Shown here: piece after piece, positions 25,538-34,053 of the stretch
Numbering within the stretch: the first letter of the stretch is position 1
Layout: the number at the start of each line of letters is the position of its first letter
NCBI RefSeq assembly: GCF_001984155.1
Contig: NZ_MTQO01000046.1
Span: forward strand, 62,001 to 126,000
Length of the DNA stretch: 64,000 nt
Reading direction: 5' to 3'
DNA from: Actinosynnema sp. ALI-1.44
GTDB taxonomy: Bacteria; Actinomycetota; Actinomycetes; Mycobacteriales; Pseudonocardiaceae
The notes under the pieces: model-generated
Seen by the model: only the letters and a program-made list of their open reading frames with translations
Told to the model about the DNA's origin: nothing
The model's database searches: none
Translations under genes and position numbers: made by a program

Positions 25538-26500
25538 TCAGAGACGGGCCTTGCCCTTCGCGGCGGCGGCGCTGGTGGCCGCTGCCGTCCGGTCAGCTGC
25601 CTTCTGTTCCGCTGCGCTCTGGCGCTCGGCGGAGGCCAGGGCGCGGGCGGCTGCCGGGGAGGTCGACTCACCGACGACGCCACCGCGGATCCGGTTGTTC
25701 GCGGCGAGCTGGGCGACCGGGTTGTTGGCCGACAGTTCCAGCTTGCCGTTGATGATGGTGTCGTCCACCGACGACTTGCCGGTGGTGTTGTTGATGTTGA
25801 CGTCGCGTGCGAAGTAGCCGCCGCTGGCACACGAGTCCAGGCCGCCGTTCGGGCCGAGCTGCACGCCGCCGCGGTTGCCCGCGAAGGTGGCCTTGCCCTG
25901 CACGGCACCACCGCAGACAACGCTGCCCTCGCTGTTGTTCAGCACGGACACGGTGCCGTCGACGAACGCGTTCGTCAGGTCGGTGTACAGCGACCCGTTC
26001 GTGGTGACGTTGCCGAGGACCTCGCTGTCGACGACCTTGACCTCGCCCGCGCTCGAGCTGAGGGCGCCGTCGATCTTCGACTGTCCCTCGACGAACAGGA
26101 AGCTCTGCGACGCGGTCTTCGGCTGCACGGTCACCTTCGCGGTGCCCGTGTTCCTCAGGTACAGCCCGAACCCGCCGGGAGCCAGCGTGACGTCACCGTC
26201 GACCCGGGTGGCCGTCGCGTCGAAGTAGCCGTCCGAGGCCACCTCGACCGCGCCGTTGATGGTGCCGCCCTTGACGATCAGGTTGGCGCCCTCGCCGACC
26301 TTCACGTTCCCGGTGATGACCGTCCTGTCCAAGGTGCAGGACTTGCCCGGCGCCACGGCGAGGTCGGTCGGCAGCGTCACAGGGCCGCCTTCGCCCTCGC
26401 AGTAGGTGACGAAGCCGGCGTTGGCGGGCGCGGCCATCATCACGGACGCGGTGACCACGGCGCTCAGAGCCGCGAGCGCGGATGCGGTCCGTCTAGCCAT
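25538..26500 (-). CDS. Secreted protein of probable right-handed beta-helix type, function unknown
   Basis: A 320-residue protein with a Sec signal peptide (residues 1-30, ending ANA). The mature part is made of short repeated strand-turn units such as VITGNVKVGEGANLIV, GTINGAVEVASDG and RVDGDVTLAPGG. Gly/Asp turns at regular intervals suggest a solenoid or bactofilin-like beta-helix. Three Cys residues could form disulphides outside the cell. The C-terminus is an Ala/Lys/Arg-rich helix. GGGAG precedes the ATG at 26500. It is only 29 bp downstream of the OmpL47-repeat gene and probably co-transcribed, so it may be a structural or binding partner of that protein at the cell surface. I cannot name a family. 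Confidence 0.7.
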   Translation of the reverse strand: MARRTASALAALSAVVTASVMMAAPANAGFVTYCEGEGGPVTLPTDLAVAPGKSCTLDRTVITGNVKVGEGANLIVKGGTINGAVEVASDGYFDATATRVDGDVTLAPGGFGLYLRNTGTAKVTVQPKTASQSFLFVEGQSKIDGALSSSAGEVKVVDSEVLGNVTTNGSLYTDLTNAFVDGTVSVLNNSEGSVVCGGAVQGKATFAGNRGGVQLGPNGGLDSCASGGYFARDVNINNTTGKSSVDDTIINGKLELSANNPVAQLAANNRIRGGVVGESTSPAAARALASAERQSAAEQKAADRTAAATSAAAAKGKARL

Positions 26501-26529: not shown

Positions 26530-28896
26530 CTAACTGCCGATGTCGGATCGCGAGGCCGCGCGCACGATGGTGCCTGCGTCCCGGCGGGACAGCACGCCGC
26601 GGGCCACCAGCTCGCTGGTGACGGTGTCGACATGCCTGACGAACACCCCGTGGCTTTCCCAGTTGCGGTACTGGTCCACGAGATCGCTGACGGTGCAGCC
26701 ATTGCCGGTGTCCGGGTTCGCGACACCGGTGTCGTCGCGTTCGATGATCACAGTCGCCCTGGTGTCGGAGTTCGGGCACTTGTCCGAGCCGGACTCGACC
26801 ACGGTGAACGACACGGACTTCTCCGCCGCGGCGTTGCCCGCCTTGTCGGTGGCCCGGTACTTCACGGTGTGCGCGCCCTTGGTGGCGACCGAGATGGTGT
26901 TCAGGTACTGCGTCCAGGCGGCGTTGTCCAGCGAGTACTCGACTGACTGGATCCCGGACTCGGCGTCGGTCGCGGTGATCGTGACGGACGCGCTGCCGAG
27001 GTAGTTGCCTTGCGGGTCTTTGTCACCCGTGACGGCCGCGCTGGTCGTCGGCGGGTTGGTGTCAGGCTGCGGGACCACCACCGTGAAGTTGGCCATGCCC
27101 TCGGGGGAGACGTTGTTCGCGTTGTCGGTGGCCCGGTAGTGCAGCATGTGCGCACCGGCTGTGCTGACGACGACTGGTGTGGTGTAGGCGGTCCAGTTGC
27201 CGGAGTCGAGCTTGTACTCGGTCGACTTGACACCTGATCCGGTGTCGGTTGCCGTCAGGGTGACGGTTGCCTTGGTGATGTAGTTGCCTTGGGCGTCTTT
27301 GTCGCCTGTGACGGCGGAGGTGACTGTGGGCGGTGTGGTGTCTGGCGGAGCCACGATGGTGAAGGTGGTCGTGCCTTCGGCGGAGACGTTGTTGGCGTTG
27401 TCCGTAGCCCGGTACGTGACCGTGTGGGCGCCAGCCGTGTTGACCACAACCGGTGCGGTGTAGGCGGTCCATGCACCTGAGTCGAGCTTGTACTCGGTCG
27501 ACTTGACACCCGAACCGGTGTCGATCGCGGTCAGAGTGACGGTCGCCTTGGTGATGTAGTTGCCTTGGGGGTCCTTGTCGCCTGTGACGGCGGAGGTGAC
27601 TGTGGGCGGTGTGGTGTCTGGCGGAGCCACGACCGTGAAGCTCGCTGTGCCTTCCGGTGAGACGTTGTTGGCGTTGTCGGTCGCGCGGTACTTGACCGTG
27701 TGCGCACCGGCTGTGCTGACAATGACTGGCGCCGTGTAGGCGGTCCAGTTGCCCGCGTCCACCTTGTACTCGGTCGACTTGACACCCGAACCGGTGTCGG
27801 TCGCGGTCAGGGTGACGGTTGCCTTGGTGATGTAGTTGCCTTGCGGGTCCTTGTCACCCGCGACCGCCGAGGTCACCGTCGGGGGAGTGGTGTCCGGCTG
27901 CTGGACCACGACCGTGAAGTGGGCCATGCCTTCGGGCGAGACGTTGTTGGCGTTGTCGATGGCCCGGTAGTGGAGCATGTGCATGCCCTCGGTCGAGACC
28001 ACGACAGGTGCGGTGTAGGCGGTCCAGTTGCCCGAGTCGAGCTTGTACTCCGTGGACTTCACGCCCGACTCGGTGTCCGTCGCGGTGACCGCGACAGTGG
28101 CCTTGGTGATGTAGTTGCCCTGCGGGTCCTTGTCACCGGTGATCGCGTGACTGACTGTCGGCGGGGTCTTGTCCGTCTGCCCTGGGACGACCTTGAACCG
28201 CGTCGAGCCGACCTCGGACTGGTTGCCCTTCTTGTCGGTCGCGCGGTACTGCACCGAGTAGTCGCCTTCGGTGGTGAAGTCGACCGGTGCGGTGTACGGC
28301 TGCCAGCTCTGGTCGTTGATCTGGTACTCGACCTTGTCCACACCGGACTGCGAGTCCGACGCGGTCACCTCGACAGTCGCCTTGCCGACGTAGTTGCCGT
28401 TGGTGTCCTTGGTTCCCTTCACCGCCGCGCTGACCGTCGGGGGAGTGGTGTCCTCACCGTCCGGCAGCACCGTCAACTCGGTGACCATGGTCTGGTGACC
28501 GGGGTACGTGCAGTGGATGCGGTACTTGCCCGGGGTGAGGGTGACCTCCGCCTCCCACTTGCCCTGCTGCTCGTCCTCCGGGTTGGCGGTGATGTTGAGC
28601 CTGACGTCGGTGTTGTACCCGGGTGTGTCCCGGTCGAACGTCAGGGTGTGGGTCATGTCGATGCTCTGGGTGGCCTTGCTGTTCTCGAACTGGATGGTGG
28701 CCTTGCCCGCGACAGCCGTGGTCGGGAACGACGTGTACTGGTCGGTCGCCTGGCTGGCGGTCCACCTCAGCACCTGCTGCGCCTGCGCCTGAACGGGGGC
28801 GGAGGCGGGGGTCGGAACTGCGGATGCCGGTATGGCCATGGCGATGGACGTCACCATCAGCGCGCCTGCCACCCCGGCGATCAAGCGTCGAAACAT
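26530..28896 (-). CDS. Secreted cupredoxin-like protein with six OmpL47-type repeats and a shared C-terminal module
   Basis: A 788-residue secreted protein. A signal peptide covers about residues 1-26. Residues 40-145 look like a cupredoxin: His83 in MTHTLTF, then HCTYPGHQTM with Cys129, His134 and Met137, the ligand set of a type 1 copper site. Residues 149-706 are six ~92-residue OmpL47-like beta domains (ATDxxSGVKSTEYKLD, then YRATDNANNVSPEG); repeats 2-5 are nearly identical. Residues 707-788 form a Cys-containing module that recurs in the 1324-residue protein encoded upstream. GGAAGG precedes the ATG. Likely role, inferred: an electron-transfer or binding protein held at the surface and working with the laccase and sugar dehydrogenase-like protein of the same strand. 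Confidence 0.8.
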   Translation of the reverse strand: MFRRLIAGVAGALMVTSIAMAIPASAVPTPASAPVQAQAQQVLRWTASQATDQYTSFPTTAVAGKATIQFENSKATQSIDMTHTLTFDRDTPGYNTDVRLNITANPEDEQQGKWEAEVTLTPGKYRIHCTYPGHQTMVTELTVLPDGEDTTPPTVSAAVKGTKDTNGNYVGKATVEVTASDSQSGVDKVEYQINDQSWQPYTAPVDFTTEGDYSVQYRATDKKGNQSEVGSTRFKVVPGQTDKTPPTVSHAITGDKDPQGNYITKATVAVTATDTESGVKSTEYKLDSGNWTAYTAPVVVSTEGMHMLHYRAIDNANNVSPEGMAHFTVVVQQPDTTPPTVTSAVAGDKDPQGNYITKATVTLTATDTGSGVKSTEYKVDAGNWTAYTAPVIVSTAGAHTVKYRATDNANNVSPEGTASFTVVAPPDTTPPTVTSAVTGDKDPQGNYITKATVTLTAIDTGSGVKSTEYKLDSGAWTAYTAPVVVNTAGAHTVTYRATDNANNVSAEGTTTFTIVAPPDTTPPTVTSAVTGDKDAQGNYITKATVTLTATDTGSGVKSTEYKLDSGNWTAYTTPVVVSTAGAHMLHYRATDNANNVSPEGMANFTVVVPQPDTNPPTTSAAVTGDKDPQGNYLGSASVTITATDAESGIQSVEYSLDNAAWTQYLNTISVATKGAHTVKYRATDKAGNAAAEKSVSFTVVESGSDKCPNSDTRATVIIERDDTGVANPDTGNGCTVSDLVDQYRNWESHGVFVRHVDTVTSELVARGVLSRRDAGTIVRAASRSDIGS
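26779..28452 (-). repeat. Six tandem ~276-bp repeats (OmpL47-type domains)
   Basis: These are intragenic tandem repeats coding for residues 149-706 of the cupredoxin-like protein. The middle four copies are near-identical in DNA as well as protein (GDKDPQGNYITKATV recurs), while the first and last are diverged. The pattern suggests recent duplication or gene conversion and makes copy number prone to change or assembly error. Confidence 0.85.
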
Positions 28897-28919
28897 GCTG
28901 CACCTTCCGGTGAGTGCGG

Positions 28920-28963
28920 GGACCGGCCGGTGCGCCGCGCAAGCAGGACGCACCGGCCGGTCC
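28920..28963. terminator. Long hairpin between the ThuA-type gene and the cupredoxin gene
   Basis: A 15-bp perfect stem (28920-28934 with 28949-28963) and a 14-nt loop. It begins 8 bp after the stop of the 1324-residue protein gene and ends 23 bp before the next start on the minus strand, so it probably ends or attenuates the laccase-ThuA transcript. Confidence 0.8.
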
Positions 28964-28971
28964 ATGCGGTT

Positions 28972-31900
28972 CTAGAGCGACCGCACTCGGATGTTGCGGA
29001 AATCGATCACGTCGGAGTTGCCGTGGTTCTGCAGACCGAGGAAGCCACTGGCGAACTGCCGCATGTCGGTCGGCGGGTCGCCCTCGCGCGACGACTGCTT
29101 GCCCGGCGTGTTGTCGAACTCGTTGATCACCTTGCCGTTGCGGATGATCGTGTAGTGTTGTCCGACGACCCGGATCTCGTAGTCGTTCCAGACGCCCTTC
29201 GGCGTGGCACCGGCGTTGTCCAGGGTGTTCGGGTCGAAGTTGTAGATCGACCCGGTCTTCTGGGGCTCACCGGTCGTGCCGTCGTAGATCTGGACTTCGT
29301 GTCCGCAGTAGATCGCGACCCACGCCTGCGAGGTGCGGGCGCTGCCGACCGTGCCACAGCTGCCCGGGGGACGCTGCTCCAGCGGAGTGCGCGGATCCGG
29401 GAACCTGGTGAACATGCCGCTGTTGGCGCGGGTGTCACCCGGCGAGGAATCCCGGAACTGCATCTTCACCGAGAAGTCGCCGAACTGCTTGCCCGCGTAC
29501 CACAGCATGCCCAGCCCGCCGGAGGAACGCAGTGAGCCGTCCGGCTGGATCGAGAACGACCCGCCCGGTGCCTGCACCCAGTCCTTCAGCGACGCCTCGG
29601 TGCCGTTGTAGATCGACTGGTAGCCGGTGTTGGCCGCCGTGCCGATGTCCGATCCGGCCGCGGCGCGCACCAACGCGCCGTTCTCGCGGCTGTTGATCAC
29701 ACCGTCCTTCTGCAGCTGCCCGGCCAGGGCCTCGACGTGCCGGACGAACGCGCCGTGGTCGGTCCACGGGCTCTCGTCGTCGACCATGTCGTTGATCGTG
29801 CAGCCGCCGCCGACCGGCTTGTTGGCCACACCGGAGTCCGTGCCGCCCATGAACACCGTGCCGCGGCTGTCGGGCACCGCGCACCCGACGTTCACGGTCA
29901 CCGGCAGGACCTGGGTCTCGCCGTTGGCGTACGTCACCGTCAGCTTCGCGTTGTACGTACCGATGCGGGCGTAGGTGTGGATCGGGTTGGCCTCGGTCGA
30001 CTGCGTGCCGTCGCCGAAGTCCCACCGGTAGGACACGCCACCGGACTTCGAACCGGAGAACCCGTAGGTCAGCGGCTTGTTCTGCACGGCGGTCGACGTG
30101 GCCGTCGGCCGCGGCGTCGGTGCGCCGCCCGTGTAGCTGATCTTGATCAGCTTCTGGTTCTGGTGCAGCGTGAAGAACCCGCCGCCGTAGTCGAGCAGGT
30201 AGAGCGCGCCGTCCGTGCCGAACTTCGCGTCCATCCAGCTCTGCAGCTGCGTGCTGCCGTTGCCGCCGGGGATGATCGCCCGCAGGGACTCGGCGAACGC
30301 CGGGGGCTGGCCGGTCGGGACACCGGCGGGGTCCGCCGTCACCGCGATGCGGTTCTGTGCGTTGCCCTGGTCACCGATGAACCACTTGTTGTTCCAGTAC
30401 TCCGGCCACGCCACACCGCTGTTGGCGTTGATCAGCTCGCGGTGGTAGGTCGGGCCGGTCATGACGGCCTGGTTGCCACCCTTGAGGTACGGCTGGGTGT
30501 AGGTGGCGTCCGTGTCCTTGTACGTCGGCAGGCCGCTGCCGTCCGGCCGGGCCGGGAAGACCGGGCCGCCGCCGTCCGGCGTGTACCAGATCATGTTGTT
30601 CTTCACCGGCGGCAGGTCGACCAGACCCGTGTTGCGCGGCGAGTTGTTCTTCGGCGCGTTGCAGTCGTACCACCCGGTCAACACATTGGCGTCGGTGTTG
30701 CTGCGGTCGCGGTACGGCTGCTTGTTGCCCATGCAGTACGGCCAGCCGTGGTTGCCCGCCTCGGTGATGATCGTGGCGGTCTCGTACTTGGCCGGGCCGA
30801 GTTCGGGGTTCGGCTTCGTGGCGTCCGGGCCGACCCACGCGGCGGTCAGCCACTGCGTGACCGGGTCGATCTGCAGGCGCGAGATGTTGCGCACGCCCAT
30901 CACGTAGATCTCCGCGCGGGTCTTGTCCGTTCCCGGCGGGAACAGGTTGCCCTGCGGGATGGTGTACGTGCCGTCCGCCTCCGGGTGGATGCGGATGATC
31001 TTGCCGTTCAGGTCGTTGGTGTTGCCCGCGGTCCTGCGTGCGTCCTGGAAGGACAGTCCTTCGAAGTCCTTGGTCCAGTTGTTGCCGGAGTACCCGCCCG
31101 ACCCCTCCGAGGAGTTGCTGTCACCGGAGCCCACGTACAGGTTGCCCTTGGCGTCGAACGCCATGCCGCCACCGGCGTGGCAGCAGCTGTGCTCCTGCGT
31201 CAACCATTGCAGCAGGTCCTTGCGCGTGCTCTGGTCGATCGTCTGGGCGGTGCGGTCGTAGGTGAACCGCGAGATCGTCCGCTTGCCGGTGTGCTTGACG
31301 CGGTCGACCGTGTCGTGCGGCATCCAGTAGACGTAGATCCAGCCGTTCTCGGTGAACTTCGGGTCCGGCACGATGCCGAGCAGGCCCTCTTCGTTCTTCT
31401 GCAGCTCACCGCCGCCACCGCGGTTGCCCATCACCGGCAGGGTCGTGAGCAGCTTGACCTGCTTGGTGTCCGGCTTGTACTGGTGGATGGTGCCGCAACC
31501 GAGGCCGACGTTCGGGTCTTCCCAGTCGGAGATCTCGCCGGACGGGCACGCCGCCTTGCCGACGTAGAAGATCGTGCCGTCGGGGGCGGTGGTGATGCCG
31601 TGCGGTTCACCGATCTGGTCGAGCTGGCCCGGCTTGTTGGCCGCGGTCAGCCGCTCGATCTTGTAGTTCGAGGCGATGGTGGCCTGGCAGTCACCGCGCA
31701 CCACACCGGTCGTCCACTGCAGCGCGCCGGTCAGGTGGCTGCGGAACGCGGGCTCGCTGTAGCTGCCCTCGGTGTGGCCCATCCCGGTGTAGAACGACCG
31801 GCCGCCTTCGTAGTCACGGCACCAGGACACCGGGTGGAACGGGCCGTTGGCGCCCGGACCCGGGTCGTAGTGCCGCTCCTCGACCTGCGCGACCGTGTGC

Positions 31901-32946
31901 ACGGTGCCGACGGGGTTCGGCGACCAGTTGTACCACCGGTCGGAGCGGGTGAGGTTGAGCGGCAGGCCCTTGGTGGCCGGGTGCTGCCGGTCGAGGATGT
32001 TCACCACCGCCTGGTTGACCCCGGGCGGCGGCGGGGGAGTCGGGTCCCCGGCGAACAGGCTCAGGTCGGCCAGCTGGATGATCGGGTCACCGTTGTTGGC
32101 GGTGATGGTGAGCCGGTAGTTCGTGTACGACACCGGCGAGGCGATCGGGTACAGCTTGGTCTGGAAGATGTCGGTGAACACCTGGTTGGACTGCTGGTCC
32201 ACCTTCGTCCACGTGGTGCCGTCGTTGGAGCCCTCGAGGGTCCAGTCCTTCGGCGCGCGGCCGACGTAGTCGTTGGCCGAGGTGAGCGAGTACCGGTTGA
32301 CCGCCGAGGCCGACTTCATCTGGTAGGCCAGCCACCCGGTCGGGTTGAACGTCAACCACTTGGTGCCCGGGTTGTTGTCGGCCGCCTTCGCCGCGGTCTC
32401 GTTCGGCGCGTTCTCCGCGCTCGCGGTGACGGTGCCGACCGATTCCGGTGTGGAGAAGGTGTTGACCGGACGCGTGCCGATCAGACCGGTGAACCACGCC
32501 GAGTCGGGCTGCGCCTTGGCCGCGTCGCCGACGCCGAGGAACCCGTTGCCCGCCTTGATGTATGCCTGCAGCACGGCTTCCTGGTCGCGGGTCAGCGCGG
32601 CCTTCTCCGCGGACAGGAACACCACGCCGCGGTAGGCGGCGAGGTTCTGCGCGGTGAACGCGTTCGGGTCCGAGGTCGTGTCGACCGAGAAGCCGTTGGC
32701 CGCGCCGATTTCCTTGACAGTGGTGGCCGCTTTGGCCACCGGGTCCTGCTGGTCGGCCAGCGGACCGTGGAACACCAGGACCTTGACGCCGGTGTCGGCG
32801 ACAGCAGCCGCGGGTGCCTGCTGCTGCGGTGCCGCGGCGGCGGATGTCAGCGTTCCGCCCACCATGGCCGCCGCGGCGGTCAGCACCAATAAGGCTTGTC
32901 TCCCTGTTCTCCTGCGAAATCGGCCAGTCATAAGCCGTCGCCCCAT
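28972..32946 (-). CDS. Secreted multidomain ThuA / discoidin / sorbosone dehydrogenase-like / PKD / DUF1080 protein
   Basis: A 1324-residue secreted protein. After the signal peptide (to about 39) there is a ThuA-like domain in two parts (53-165 and 312-415), interrupted by an F5/8 type C (discoidin) domain at about 170-300. A beta-propeller of the PQQ glucose/sorbosone dehydrogenase type spans about 430-930 (GEPHGITTAPDGTIFYVG, EEGLLGIVPDPKF, HAGGGMAFDAKGNLYVGSGD). A PKD domain is at 940-1021 (YRWDFGDGTQS). The Cys module shared with the downstream cupredoxin protein is at 1022-1102. A C-terminal DUF1080/3-keto-disaccharide hydrolase-like domain follows (VWNDYEIRVVG). The start follows AAAGGAG. 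It is 33 bp downstream of the laccase gene. It probably binds and oxidises or cleaves sugars outside the cell. Confidence 0.85.
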   Translation of the reverse strand: MGRRLMTGRFRRRTGRQALLVLTAAAAMVGGTLTSAAAAPQQQAPAAAVADTGVKVLVFHGPLADQQDPVAKAATTVKEIGAANGFSVDTTSDPNAFTAQNLAAYRGVVFLSAEKAALTRDQEAVLQAYIKAGNGFLGVGDAAKAQPDSAWFTGLIGTRPVNTFSTPESVGTVTASAENAPNETAAKAADNNPGTKWLTFNPTGWLAYQMKSASAVNRYSLTSANDYVGRAPKDWTLEGSNDGTTWTKVDQQSNQVFTDIFQTKLYPIASPVSYTNYRLTITANNGDPIIQLADLSLFAGDPTPPPPPGVNQAVVNILDRQHPATKGLPLNLTRSDRWYNWSPNPVGTVHTVAQVEERHYDPGPGANGPFHPVSWCRDYEGGRSFYTGMGHTEGSYSEPAFRSHLTGALQWTTGVVRGDCQATIASNYKIERLTAANKPGQLDQIGEPHGITTAPDGTIFYVGKAACPSGEISDWEDPNVGLGCGTIHQYKPDTKQVKLLTTLPVMGNRGGGGELQKNEEGLLGIVPDPKFTENGWIYVYWMPHDTVDRVKHTGKRTISRFTYDRTAQTIDQSTRKDLLQWLTQEHSCCHAGGGMAFDAKGNLYVGSGDSNSSEGSGGYSGNNWTKDFEGLSFQDARRTAGNTNDLNGKIIRIHPEADGTYTIPQGNLFPPGTDKTRAEIYVMGVRNISRLQIDPVTQWLTAAWVGPDATKPNPELGPAKYETATIITEAGNHGWPYCMGNKQPYRDRSNTDANVLTGWYDCNAPKNNSPRNTGLVDLPPVKNNMIWYTPDGGGPVFPARPDGSGLPTYKDTDATYTQPYLKGGNQAVMTGPTYHRELINANSGVAWPEYWNNKWFIGDQGNAQNRIAVTADPAGVPTGQPPAFAESLRAIIPGGNGSTQLQSWMDAKFGTDGALYLLDYGGGFFTLHQNQKLIKISYTGGAPTPRPTATSTAVQNKPLTYGFSGSKSGGVSYRWDFGDGTQSTEANPIHTYARIGTYNAKLTVTYANGETQVLPVTVNVGCAVPDSRGTVFMGGTDSGVANKPVGGGCTINDMVDDESPWTDHGAFVRHVEALAGQLQKDGVINSRENGALVRAAAGSDIGTAANTGYQSIYNGTEASLKDWVQAPGGSFSIQPDGSLRSSGGLGMLWYAGKQFGDFSVKMQFRDSSPGDTRANSGMFTRFPDPRTPLEQRPPGSCGTVGSARTSQAWVAIYCGHEVQIYDGTTGEPQKTGSIYNFDPNTLDNAGATPKGVWNDYEIRVVGQHYTIIRNGKVINEFDNTPGKQSSREGDPPTDMRQFASGFLGLQNHGNSDVIDFRNIRVRSL

Positions 32947-32979
32947 CCCTAACTCCTTTGTCGTAGGCAGGCCAGGAGG

Positions 32980-34053
32980 TCAGTTGTGATGCGCGTGCCC
33001 CTGCGTCGCCGGTTCTCCTGGCGGCGGTGCCGTGTCGGCTGCCGCGGGCTTGTGCTCGTGGCCGTGGAAGCGGTCGATCGCTTCCTGCGCACCGGGGGGC
33101 ATGCTGCCGTCCGCGTTGCGGACGAGGAAGATCCCGGACATCCCGCTGTCCGAGTGGCTCTGCACGTGGCAGTGGTACATCCACGCGCCCGGGCCGACAC
33201 CCTGGCCCGCGATGACCTGGAAGCCGAACGACGTGCCCGGGTTGAGGTCCTTGATGTCGATCACGCGGCTGGGGTCGGACGGCCCCTCGAGCATGCCCGT
33301 GCGGTTGTCGGCCCAGCGGTGCGCGTGCAGGTGGAACGTGTGGTACAGGTTGCCGTGGCCGATCGCCAGCCACTCGACGCGCTGGCCGAGGTTGGCCTCG
33401 AACATCGGGGTGTCCGGCGCCTTCTTGTGGTTGATCCTGGTGTCGTCCATGACGACCACGAAGGTCTTCTCCGGCAGGATGTCGCCGCGGCGGCGCACGA
33501 TCAGCCCGCCGTACATGCCGCGCAACAGGCCCGCGGTGCCGTGGTCGCCGTACGCGTGGTCGTGGTAGTGCCAGTAGCCCGCGCTGCCCGGCATGAACCG
33601 CCTGCCTTCGGCGGCGGACATCTCGTTGCTCCGCCAGGTGTACACCCGGGTCTGGCCGGGGGCGTTGAAGGAGTCGTTGAGCGGGCTGCCGTCGGACTCG
33701 GTGCTGTAGTCCACGCCGTGCGGGTGGATCGACAGCCGCTGGTCGGTCTTGTTGACCAGGGTGATCTCCAGCGTGTCGCCCTCGTAGATCTGCAGCAGGG
33801 GACCGGGGATCGACGGCTTGCCCTCTTCGAGGCCGTAGCCGATGAAGTAGTTGGTGGTCTGACCCGGCAGGTACTCCGCGTACATGGTGATCTTCTTGAC
33901 CACACCGGTCTGTGCCTGTGCGGCCGATCCGCCCGGTGCGGCCGCGCCCAGCGTCATGGCGGCCGGTACGGCCAGGCCGACGGTGCTTGTGGCGAGCACA
34001 GAGCGACGGGTGACAAGTTTCTGCAACCAGCCGGTCTGGGCGTGCTTGTCCAT
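32980..34053 (-). CDS. Secreted two-domain multicopper oxidase (small laccase type)
   Basis: A 357-residue protein with a twin-arginine signal (TRRSVLATSTVGLAVP). All four copper-ligand motifs are present in the order of two-domain laccases: HPHG at 110-113, HYHDH at 162-166, HLHAH at 241-245 and HCHVQSHSDSGM at 294-305, which includes the type 1 copper Cys. The length fits the homotrimeric bacterial small laccases, exported folded. The C-terminus is His-rich (HGHEH, HAHHN). It oxidises phenolic or metal substrates with reduction of O2 to water. It is the first gene of the minus-strand group with the sugar-dehydrogenase-like and cupredoxin proteins, so electrons may pass between these extracellular proteins. 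Confidence 0.9.
   Translation of the reverse strand: MDKHAQTGWLQKLVTRRSVLATSTVGLAVPAAMTLGAAAPGGSAAQAQTGVVKKITMYAEYLPGQTTNYFIGYGLEEGKPSIPGPLLQIYEGDTLEITLVNKTDQRLSIHPHGVDYSTESDGSPLNDSFNAPGQTRVYTWRSNEMSAAEGRRFMPGSAGYWHYHDHAYGDHGTAGLLRGMYGGLIVRRRGDILPEKTFVVVMDDTRINHKKAPDTPMFEANLGQRVEWLAIGHGNLYHTFHLHAHRWADNRTGMLEGPSDPSRVIDIKDLNPGTSFGFQVIAGQGVGPGAWMYHCHVQSHSDSGMSGIFLVRNADGSMPPGAQEAIDRFHGHEHKPAAADTAPPPGEPATQGHAHHN

Follow-up and report, generated by a model that had tools for sequence, protein, structure and literature searches.

Accessory modules on secreted enzymes are already known. The dockerins of the cellulosome, each consisting of two calcium-binding F-hand repeats, are small modules carried by diverse secreted enzymes and present in many copies in one lineage. 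FIMAH (PF22888), of approximately 80 residues, is an accessory domain on large multidomain proteins of the same organisms as those considered here. The closest precedent from experiment is the GH92 mannosidase of Neobacillus novalis (NnGH92), a multidomain secreted glycosidase that ends in a small four-helix bundle, FHB (PDB 7nsn). Deletion of the C-terminal FHB roughly halved the amount of enzyme bound to yeast walls, with about 80% of the activity kept and a decrease of the Tm from 60 to 53 °C (PMC10167667). The precedent mixes binding and stability, since the same deletion also lowered the Tm.

The module described here is small, like a dockerin, is likewise found on diverse secreted enzymes and in many copies in one lineage, and has the length and the type of host of FIMAH. 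In contrast to the all-helical FHB, it holds a predicted beta-hairpin.

Two copies of a module in the window

The window, that is, the whole stretch of 64,000 nucleotides that was analysed, encodes two large proteins whose N-termini look by eye like signal peptides, and for which the sequence-only reading had proposed a common ungapped stretch of about 81 residues with some 38 identities. BLASTP between the two whole proteins has recovered precisely this stretch as the single significant local match (38 of 82 residues identical, 46%; 53 of 82 positive; no gaps; E 2e-20), and the remaining matches listed show E-values of 2.6 or worse. The match covers residues 730-811, the extreme C-terminus, of the 811-aa ORF and residues 1022-1103 of the 1324-aa ORF. 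Residues 707-787, given earlier for the first protein, are the same stretch numbered from an internal Met24. The features of this region are as follows:

26530-28965, minus strand: cupredoxin and OmpL47-type repeat protein, 811 aa; NCBIfam NF047446 (barrel_OmpL47) in 6 stretches; module at its end
26536-26778, minus strand: module copy 1, 81-aa core, at the C-terminal end of the cupredoxin/OmpL47 protein; BLASTP 38/82, E 2e-20; member of the module alignment
28456-28779, minus strand: cupredoxin domain, with the blue-copper pattern His...Cys-x4-His-x2-Met
28972-32946, minus strand: protein with ThuA, F5/8C, GSDH, PKD, module and 3-keto-disaccharide hydrolase, 1324 aa (Pfam)
28981-29625, minus strand: 3-keto-disaccharide hydrolase domain (Pfam PF06439, residues 1108-1322), immediately after the module
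29641-29883, minus strand: module copy 2, 81-aa core, between the PKD and 3-keto-disaccharide hydrolase domains of the ThuA/GSDH protein; AlphaFold2 pLDDT 96.9, pTM 0.87
29911-30120, minus strand: PKD domain (Pfam PF18911, residues 943-1012), immediately before the module
30724-31404, minus strand: GSDH (glucose/sorbosone dehydrogenase) domain (Pfam PF07995, residues 515-741)
32980-34053, minus strand: two-domain small laccase, 357 aa, without module, first gene of the cluster; PDB 3t9w small laccase, E 1.8e-116

The domains of the 1324-aa protein are assigned with Pfam E-values of 2.1e-55 (ThuA), 5.2e-32 (3keto-disac_hyd), 4.3e-21 (GSDH), 5.5e-15 (PKD_4) and 7.7e-10 (F5_F8_type_C), the last of which has the CBM32 of NnGH92 as its closest PDB match. 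The GSDH domain aligns weakly with PDB 2ism and 3a9g, and its HxGG, RN and GNxGWP segments are kept in 2ism; some of these are PQQ-site residues, and the use of this cofactor here is putative. For the cupredoxin protein, no Pfam cupredoxin family was reported at E<=1. The strict blue-copper pattern is found in 59 of 79 unique cupredoxin homologues, the other 20 showing Cys-x4-His with a Met nearby, and in one homologue (L249) Pfam Copper-bind reaches 21.1 bits versus a cut-off of 21.2. The whole cluster (26530-34053) looks like an extracellular glycoside-oxidation unit.

The OmpL47-type repeats (26779-28455) match the NCBIfam model very strongly (3.5e-159) in an actinomycete, and the protein even passes the equivalog model for Leptospira OmpL47 (271 bits versus a cut-off of 250). 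This family name, taken from a Leptospira surface protein, is misleading for the actinomycete protein of the window.

Absence from domain libraries

The module family is new to the copies of Pfam-A, NCBIfam and PDB searched, in agreement with the sequence-only reading, which had recognised no named domain. Pfam-A reported no family over the module in either window protein at E<=1, and 21 modules scanned at E<=10 gave weak scattered matches only (best 0.007). NCBIfam likewise gave no family, its best E-value of 0.0024 belonging to an unrelated model that matched 1 of 110 members. Among PDB sequences there was no match to the window module, and the module profile reached at best E 0.26. Identity with a known domain was rejected on these results. 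Five of the 21 modules touched PF20091 (best E 0.007), in the Abhydrolase_10 tail, whose likeness is restricted to the helical half of the module and may or may not reflect common ancestry: the C-terminal 43 residues of one Abhydrolase_10 protein (L204) resemble the helical hairpin with a local E of 4.5e-5, in a comparison with a small database and filters off in which 3 of 12 loci gave E <0.01. In the literature, no title or abstract start among the matches listed concerned the module, and the phrase "FIMAH domain" was not found in the literature searched.

Predicted fold and conserved residues

AlphaFold2, run with 110 members, predicts one compact fold (pLDDT 96.9, pTM 0.87), with strands at 9-12 and 15-20 and helices at 30-34, 43-59 and 65-77. 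According to this model, the module would be a unit of about 81 residues that folds independently, with an N-terminal beta-hairpin followed by three helices, reused on secreted sugar-processing and other enzymes of Actinomycetota. No known fold could be assigned, as the best scores of Foldseek (E 1.0 in PDB, 0.67 in BFVD) and of the VIA fold search (Z 4.4, with ribosomal protein chains) all lie within the chance range. A search of PDB sequences with the module profile did not match 7nsn, and superposition of its FHB on the module is a weak structural match (VIA Z 3.0, 65 residues, 3.4 Å).

All 110 members of the alignment have C1, D5 and C28, and the two cysteines are found together in 170 of the 196 unique modules. 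In 12 modules C28 is present and the start is unaligned, with a Cys shortly upstream in 11 but not in the remaining one (L161). Fourteen modules have Cys at neither aligned position, although in one of them (L033) a Cys lies slightly upstream, outside the alignment, and in the GH127-type modules both cysteines are missing together. Because C1 and C28 are retained jointly, they probably form a disulfide that pins the N-terminal beta-hairpin.

Distribution and hosts of the family

Among 60 genomes searched (the module's own included), the module was found in 18, and 15 of these 18 hold two copies approximately 2.3-3.5 kb apart, so the similarity is far beyond chance. In its own genome of 11.7 Mb, no third copy was found at E<=1, and the window pair are the sole two copies found. 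With a profile built on 21 members, the class sample (296 genomes) yielded 52 genomes with the module, and a phylum sample of 246 genomes, overlapping with the first, yielded 12; both counts include the module's own genome. Where family f34 carries the module, it has 4-18 copies in each genome, and one of its genera (g89), which includes Jiangella ureilytica and J. asiatica, has 10-18. A scan with two conserved peptides showed that 124 contig stretches encode relatives of the module; the 79 loci retained from the best 80 of them bear actinobacterial titles throughout. Spread by phages was ruled out by the absence of any match in 50,697 phage records; five plasmid records matched at E<=1, two of them (Streptomyces, Nonomuraea) with at least 80% of the query covered. 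On the evidence of sequence comparison and modelling, the module is a real domain family, outside the copies of Pfam, NCBIfam and PDB searched, with members in a sizeable fraction of the actinobacterial genomes sampled and on several kinds of secreted enzymes.

Besides the two architectures of the window, hosts include GH127 arabinofuranosidases with Laminin_G, polysaccharide deacetylases, proteins with GSDH, PKD, CBM6 and hydrolase domains, and the hydrolase alone. Domains co-occurring with the module are CBM_6, F5/8C and Laminin_G_3. The genome G116, of genus g89, holds 18 modules in 17 ORFs, and in the 15 ORFs scanned with Pfam the hosts were ThuA/GSDH or GSDH proteins (6), GH127 (3), GH31, a deacetylase, an M14 carboxypeptidase, an S15 X-Pro peptidase and an OmpL47-type protein. 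No Pfam family was found at E<=1e-5 in L164 of G116, nor in L183 of genome G180. In L167 (4682-6952), a single ORF carries two modules, each preceding a polysaccharide deacetylase domain, as the product of an internal tandem duplication.

Counting duplicates, 203 ORFs gave 204 module placements; the module ends at most 20 residues from the C-terminus in 89 of these and lies 151-260 residues ahead of it in 103. The proteins are presumably secreted, since a signal-peptide rule was satisfied by 146 of 195 unique module ORFs versus 207 of 761 other long ORFs; the rule is crude, and several of the misses start with an out-of-gene stop-to-stop read-through or at a locus edge. The absence of LPxTG in the final 60 residues of all 195 unique ORFs indicates that the module proteins are not themselves marked for sortase.

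A tree of 196 modules required 12 changes of host-architecture label versus a mean of 93.1 after shuffling, a figure to be read knowing that the tree is based on 81 columns, that 78 of its 193 forks are open and that near-copies favour the clustering of labels. From this tree, the window copies appear to be paralogues of long standing, each following its host protein. A recent duplication within their own genome was ruled out, as the copies group by type of host protein across other genomes. On the same tree, the locus L079 (JOAA01000013.1) falls with Kibdelosporangium, although its record bears the title Rhodococcus rhodnii NRRL B-16535, and it probably comes from a mislabelled genome.

The laccase, ThuA-GSDH and cupredoxin cluster

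The small laccase, the ThuA-GSDH-module-hydrolase protein and the cupredoxin-OmpL47-module protein form a conserved cluster, and all three are present in 69 of the 79 named loci (best 80 of 124). In this same set the GSDH-module-hydrolase protein appears in 79 of 79 loci, which was to be expected from the query, since this type made up 4 of its 6 rows, among them the first. A homologue of the small laccase is found in 75 of the 79 loci, 65 on the same strand and 10 on the opposite one, and none of the 88 laccase homologues in the loci holds the module. Cupredoxin partners number 70. The module is present in 50 and absent from 12 intact ones, and the other 8 are either truncated at a locus or contig end or masked, hence 12 of the 62 assessable partners are without it. 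Four of the module-less partners (L109, L113, L115 and L123) end instead in a short basic tail with two Cys (for example, GKGKGCKD).

FIMAH in the place of the module

At E<=1e-30, a search for the hydrolase domain in the class sample of 296 genomes gave 48 places in 43 of them. Among the 30 places read, the module stands directly before the hydrolase in 28 (own included). In two genomes of one genus (G121 and G136), the ThuA orthologues pass from the end of PKD directly to the hydrolase, and the module is cleanly absent. These proteins hold instead a C-terminal FIMAH (29.6 and 32.2 bits against a cut-off of 24.8). Of the two laccases encoded beside each ThuA gene, one has a FIMAH tail that scores just under this cut-off (24.4 and 23.3 bits) and that was recovered at 1e-14 and 3e-14 by a local profile containing the G121 FIMAH stretches. 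The corresponding loci, in which the ThuA protein and the clustered laccase both have FIMAH tails and the module is missing, are:

L247, 1109-7131
L248, 4209-10239

In both genomes, the contig ends within the cupredoxin ORF. Another contig end of G121 (C26), with matching OmpL47-like repeats at its start and FIMAH (44.5 bits) at its close, may be the continuation of the truncated ORF. In a genome of the same family (G086), the module is found on both the ThuA and the cupredoxin proteins. The exchange, in two genomes of a single genus, is probably one event. Two hydrolase matches in another genome (G192) belong to other architectures, with neither module nor FIMAH.

FIMAH is present in 8 of 10 genomes searched, with 42 matches and 3 modules in G121, and 7 matches and 18 modules in G116. 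It is not a relative of the module on sequence (hhalign probability 0.3), the Pfam scans gave no PF22888 match over the module, and the beta-hairpin and likely disulfide belong to the module, in contrast to FIMAH. Both are separate neighbours in one protein (L175; FIMAH at 964-1043, module at 1060-1138). Since FIMAH stands on the ThuA protein where the module is missing, and on a laccase of the same cluster, module and FIMAH would serve a like purpose. A tentative and rather doubtful extension of this idea is that they are unrelated, interchangeable address tags, with the partners of one extracellular sugar-oxidation pathway (the ThuA/GSDH/3-keto-hydrolase protein and the blue-copper cupredoxin) sharing a tag, lineages exchanging it jointly, and the tagged proteins assembling on a common receptor or matrix. 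If so, these tags would represent a non-cellulosomal assembly principle in actinobacteria, and the FIMAH version would mark the small laccase too.

Proposed role of the module

With moderate confidence, we favour the module being a non-catalytic tag for attachment or co-localisation, with a putative target. The module would bind a common extracellular partner or matrix (wall glycan, exopolysaccharide or a receptor), bringing the tagged ThuA/GSDH/3-keto-hydrolase and cupredoxin proteins side by side and near the small laccase, where electrons may pass from GSDH to the cupredoxin and from it to the laccase. A reusable function is suggested by its clean absence from the FIMAH-bearing orthologues, by the 10-18 copies per genome in g89 and by its use behind unrelated enzymes. 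The docking or surface-anchoring role first suggested is supported to this extent, as the module has a self-contained predicted fold, is often C-terminal and is found on several unrelated enzyme types. The accompanying proposal that the module links the partners of the cluster has evidence on both sides: FIMAH on the ThuA protein and laccase of the same cluster lends it some support, but 12 of 62 assessable cupredoxin partners and all 88 laccase homologues in the loci lack the module, and few module ORFs of G116 and G180 lie in such a cluster. A laccase gene and a cupredoxin gene were found in the same fetched stretch for just 2 of 17 module ORFs of G116 and 2 of 12 of G180, so the module must have uses other than linking these partners.

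According to a stricter version, which we judge unlikely, the modules of the ThuA/GSDH and cupredoxin proteins bind each other, or a shared protein of the cluster, to build an extracellular oxidase complex. The closely spaced copies in 15 of 18 module-bearing genomes and the 50 module-bearing cupredoxin partners in 79 loci (best 80 of 124) are consistent with it, as are the separate old lineages that follow their hosts on the tree (12 changes versus 93.1), as interacting halves would. However, the 12 assessable partners without module, together with the location of most module ORFs of G116 (15 of 17) and G180 (10 of 12) outside such a cluster, make strict module-to-module docking less likely, and an obligatory form of it is disfavoured. 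Moreover, cohesin (PF00963) was found in none of 8 genomes by a search whose control in Methanosarcina acetivorans was positive, so there is no known docking receptor. The same search bears on identity with dockerins, which was rejected: no dockerin profile matched the two proteins (E<=1) or 21 modules (E<=10) in Pfam, and the module model, as far as its secondary structure goes, has no duplicated loop-helix.

Equally unlikely in our opinion is a structural cap or spacer that binds nothing and either stabilises the preceding domain (PKD, Ig-like or the C-terminal part of GH127) or sets the spacing of domains. A beta-rich domain does precede the module in both window proteins; the PKD-module-hydrolase unit is modelled with pLDDT 90.8 and pTM 0.88 and with junctions that appear to lack a floppy linker; and loss of FHB cost NnGH92 7 °C of Tm (PMC10167667). 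Against a cap stand the two otherwise intact orthologues that do without the module, its 10-18 copies per g89 genome, its use behind unrelated enzymes, and the two modules of L167, each placed ahead of a deacetylase domain.

It is very improbable that the module is a small enzymatic domain or a ligand sensor, such as one with metal or redox activity through conserved Asp, His and Cys. D5, D16, D32 and H43 are indeed strongly conserved (110, 102, 102 and 104 of 110 modules), but the same intact orthologues lack the module, the cysteines are jointly missing in GH127-type members, and the weak helical match to the Abhydrolase_10 tail is the only relation to an enzyme family. Mere chance, or a generic low-complexity or Ig-like likeness, has a negligible probability given the ungapped match, the 196 unique members and their one confident fold, and no point in its favour was found.

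If the module is an attachment tag, it would account for how these enzymes stay in place although they have neither LPxTG signals nor a cohesin-dockerin system, and the laccase/cupredoxin/GSDH cluster would become testable as an extracellular electron-transfer unit. Downstream of the cluster, 25538-26488 encodes a protein without Pfam or NCBIfam match that appears by eye to be secreted and beta-helix-like, with homologues in 28 of the 79 loci (best 80 of 124 relatives).
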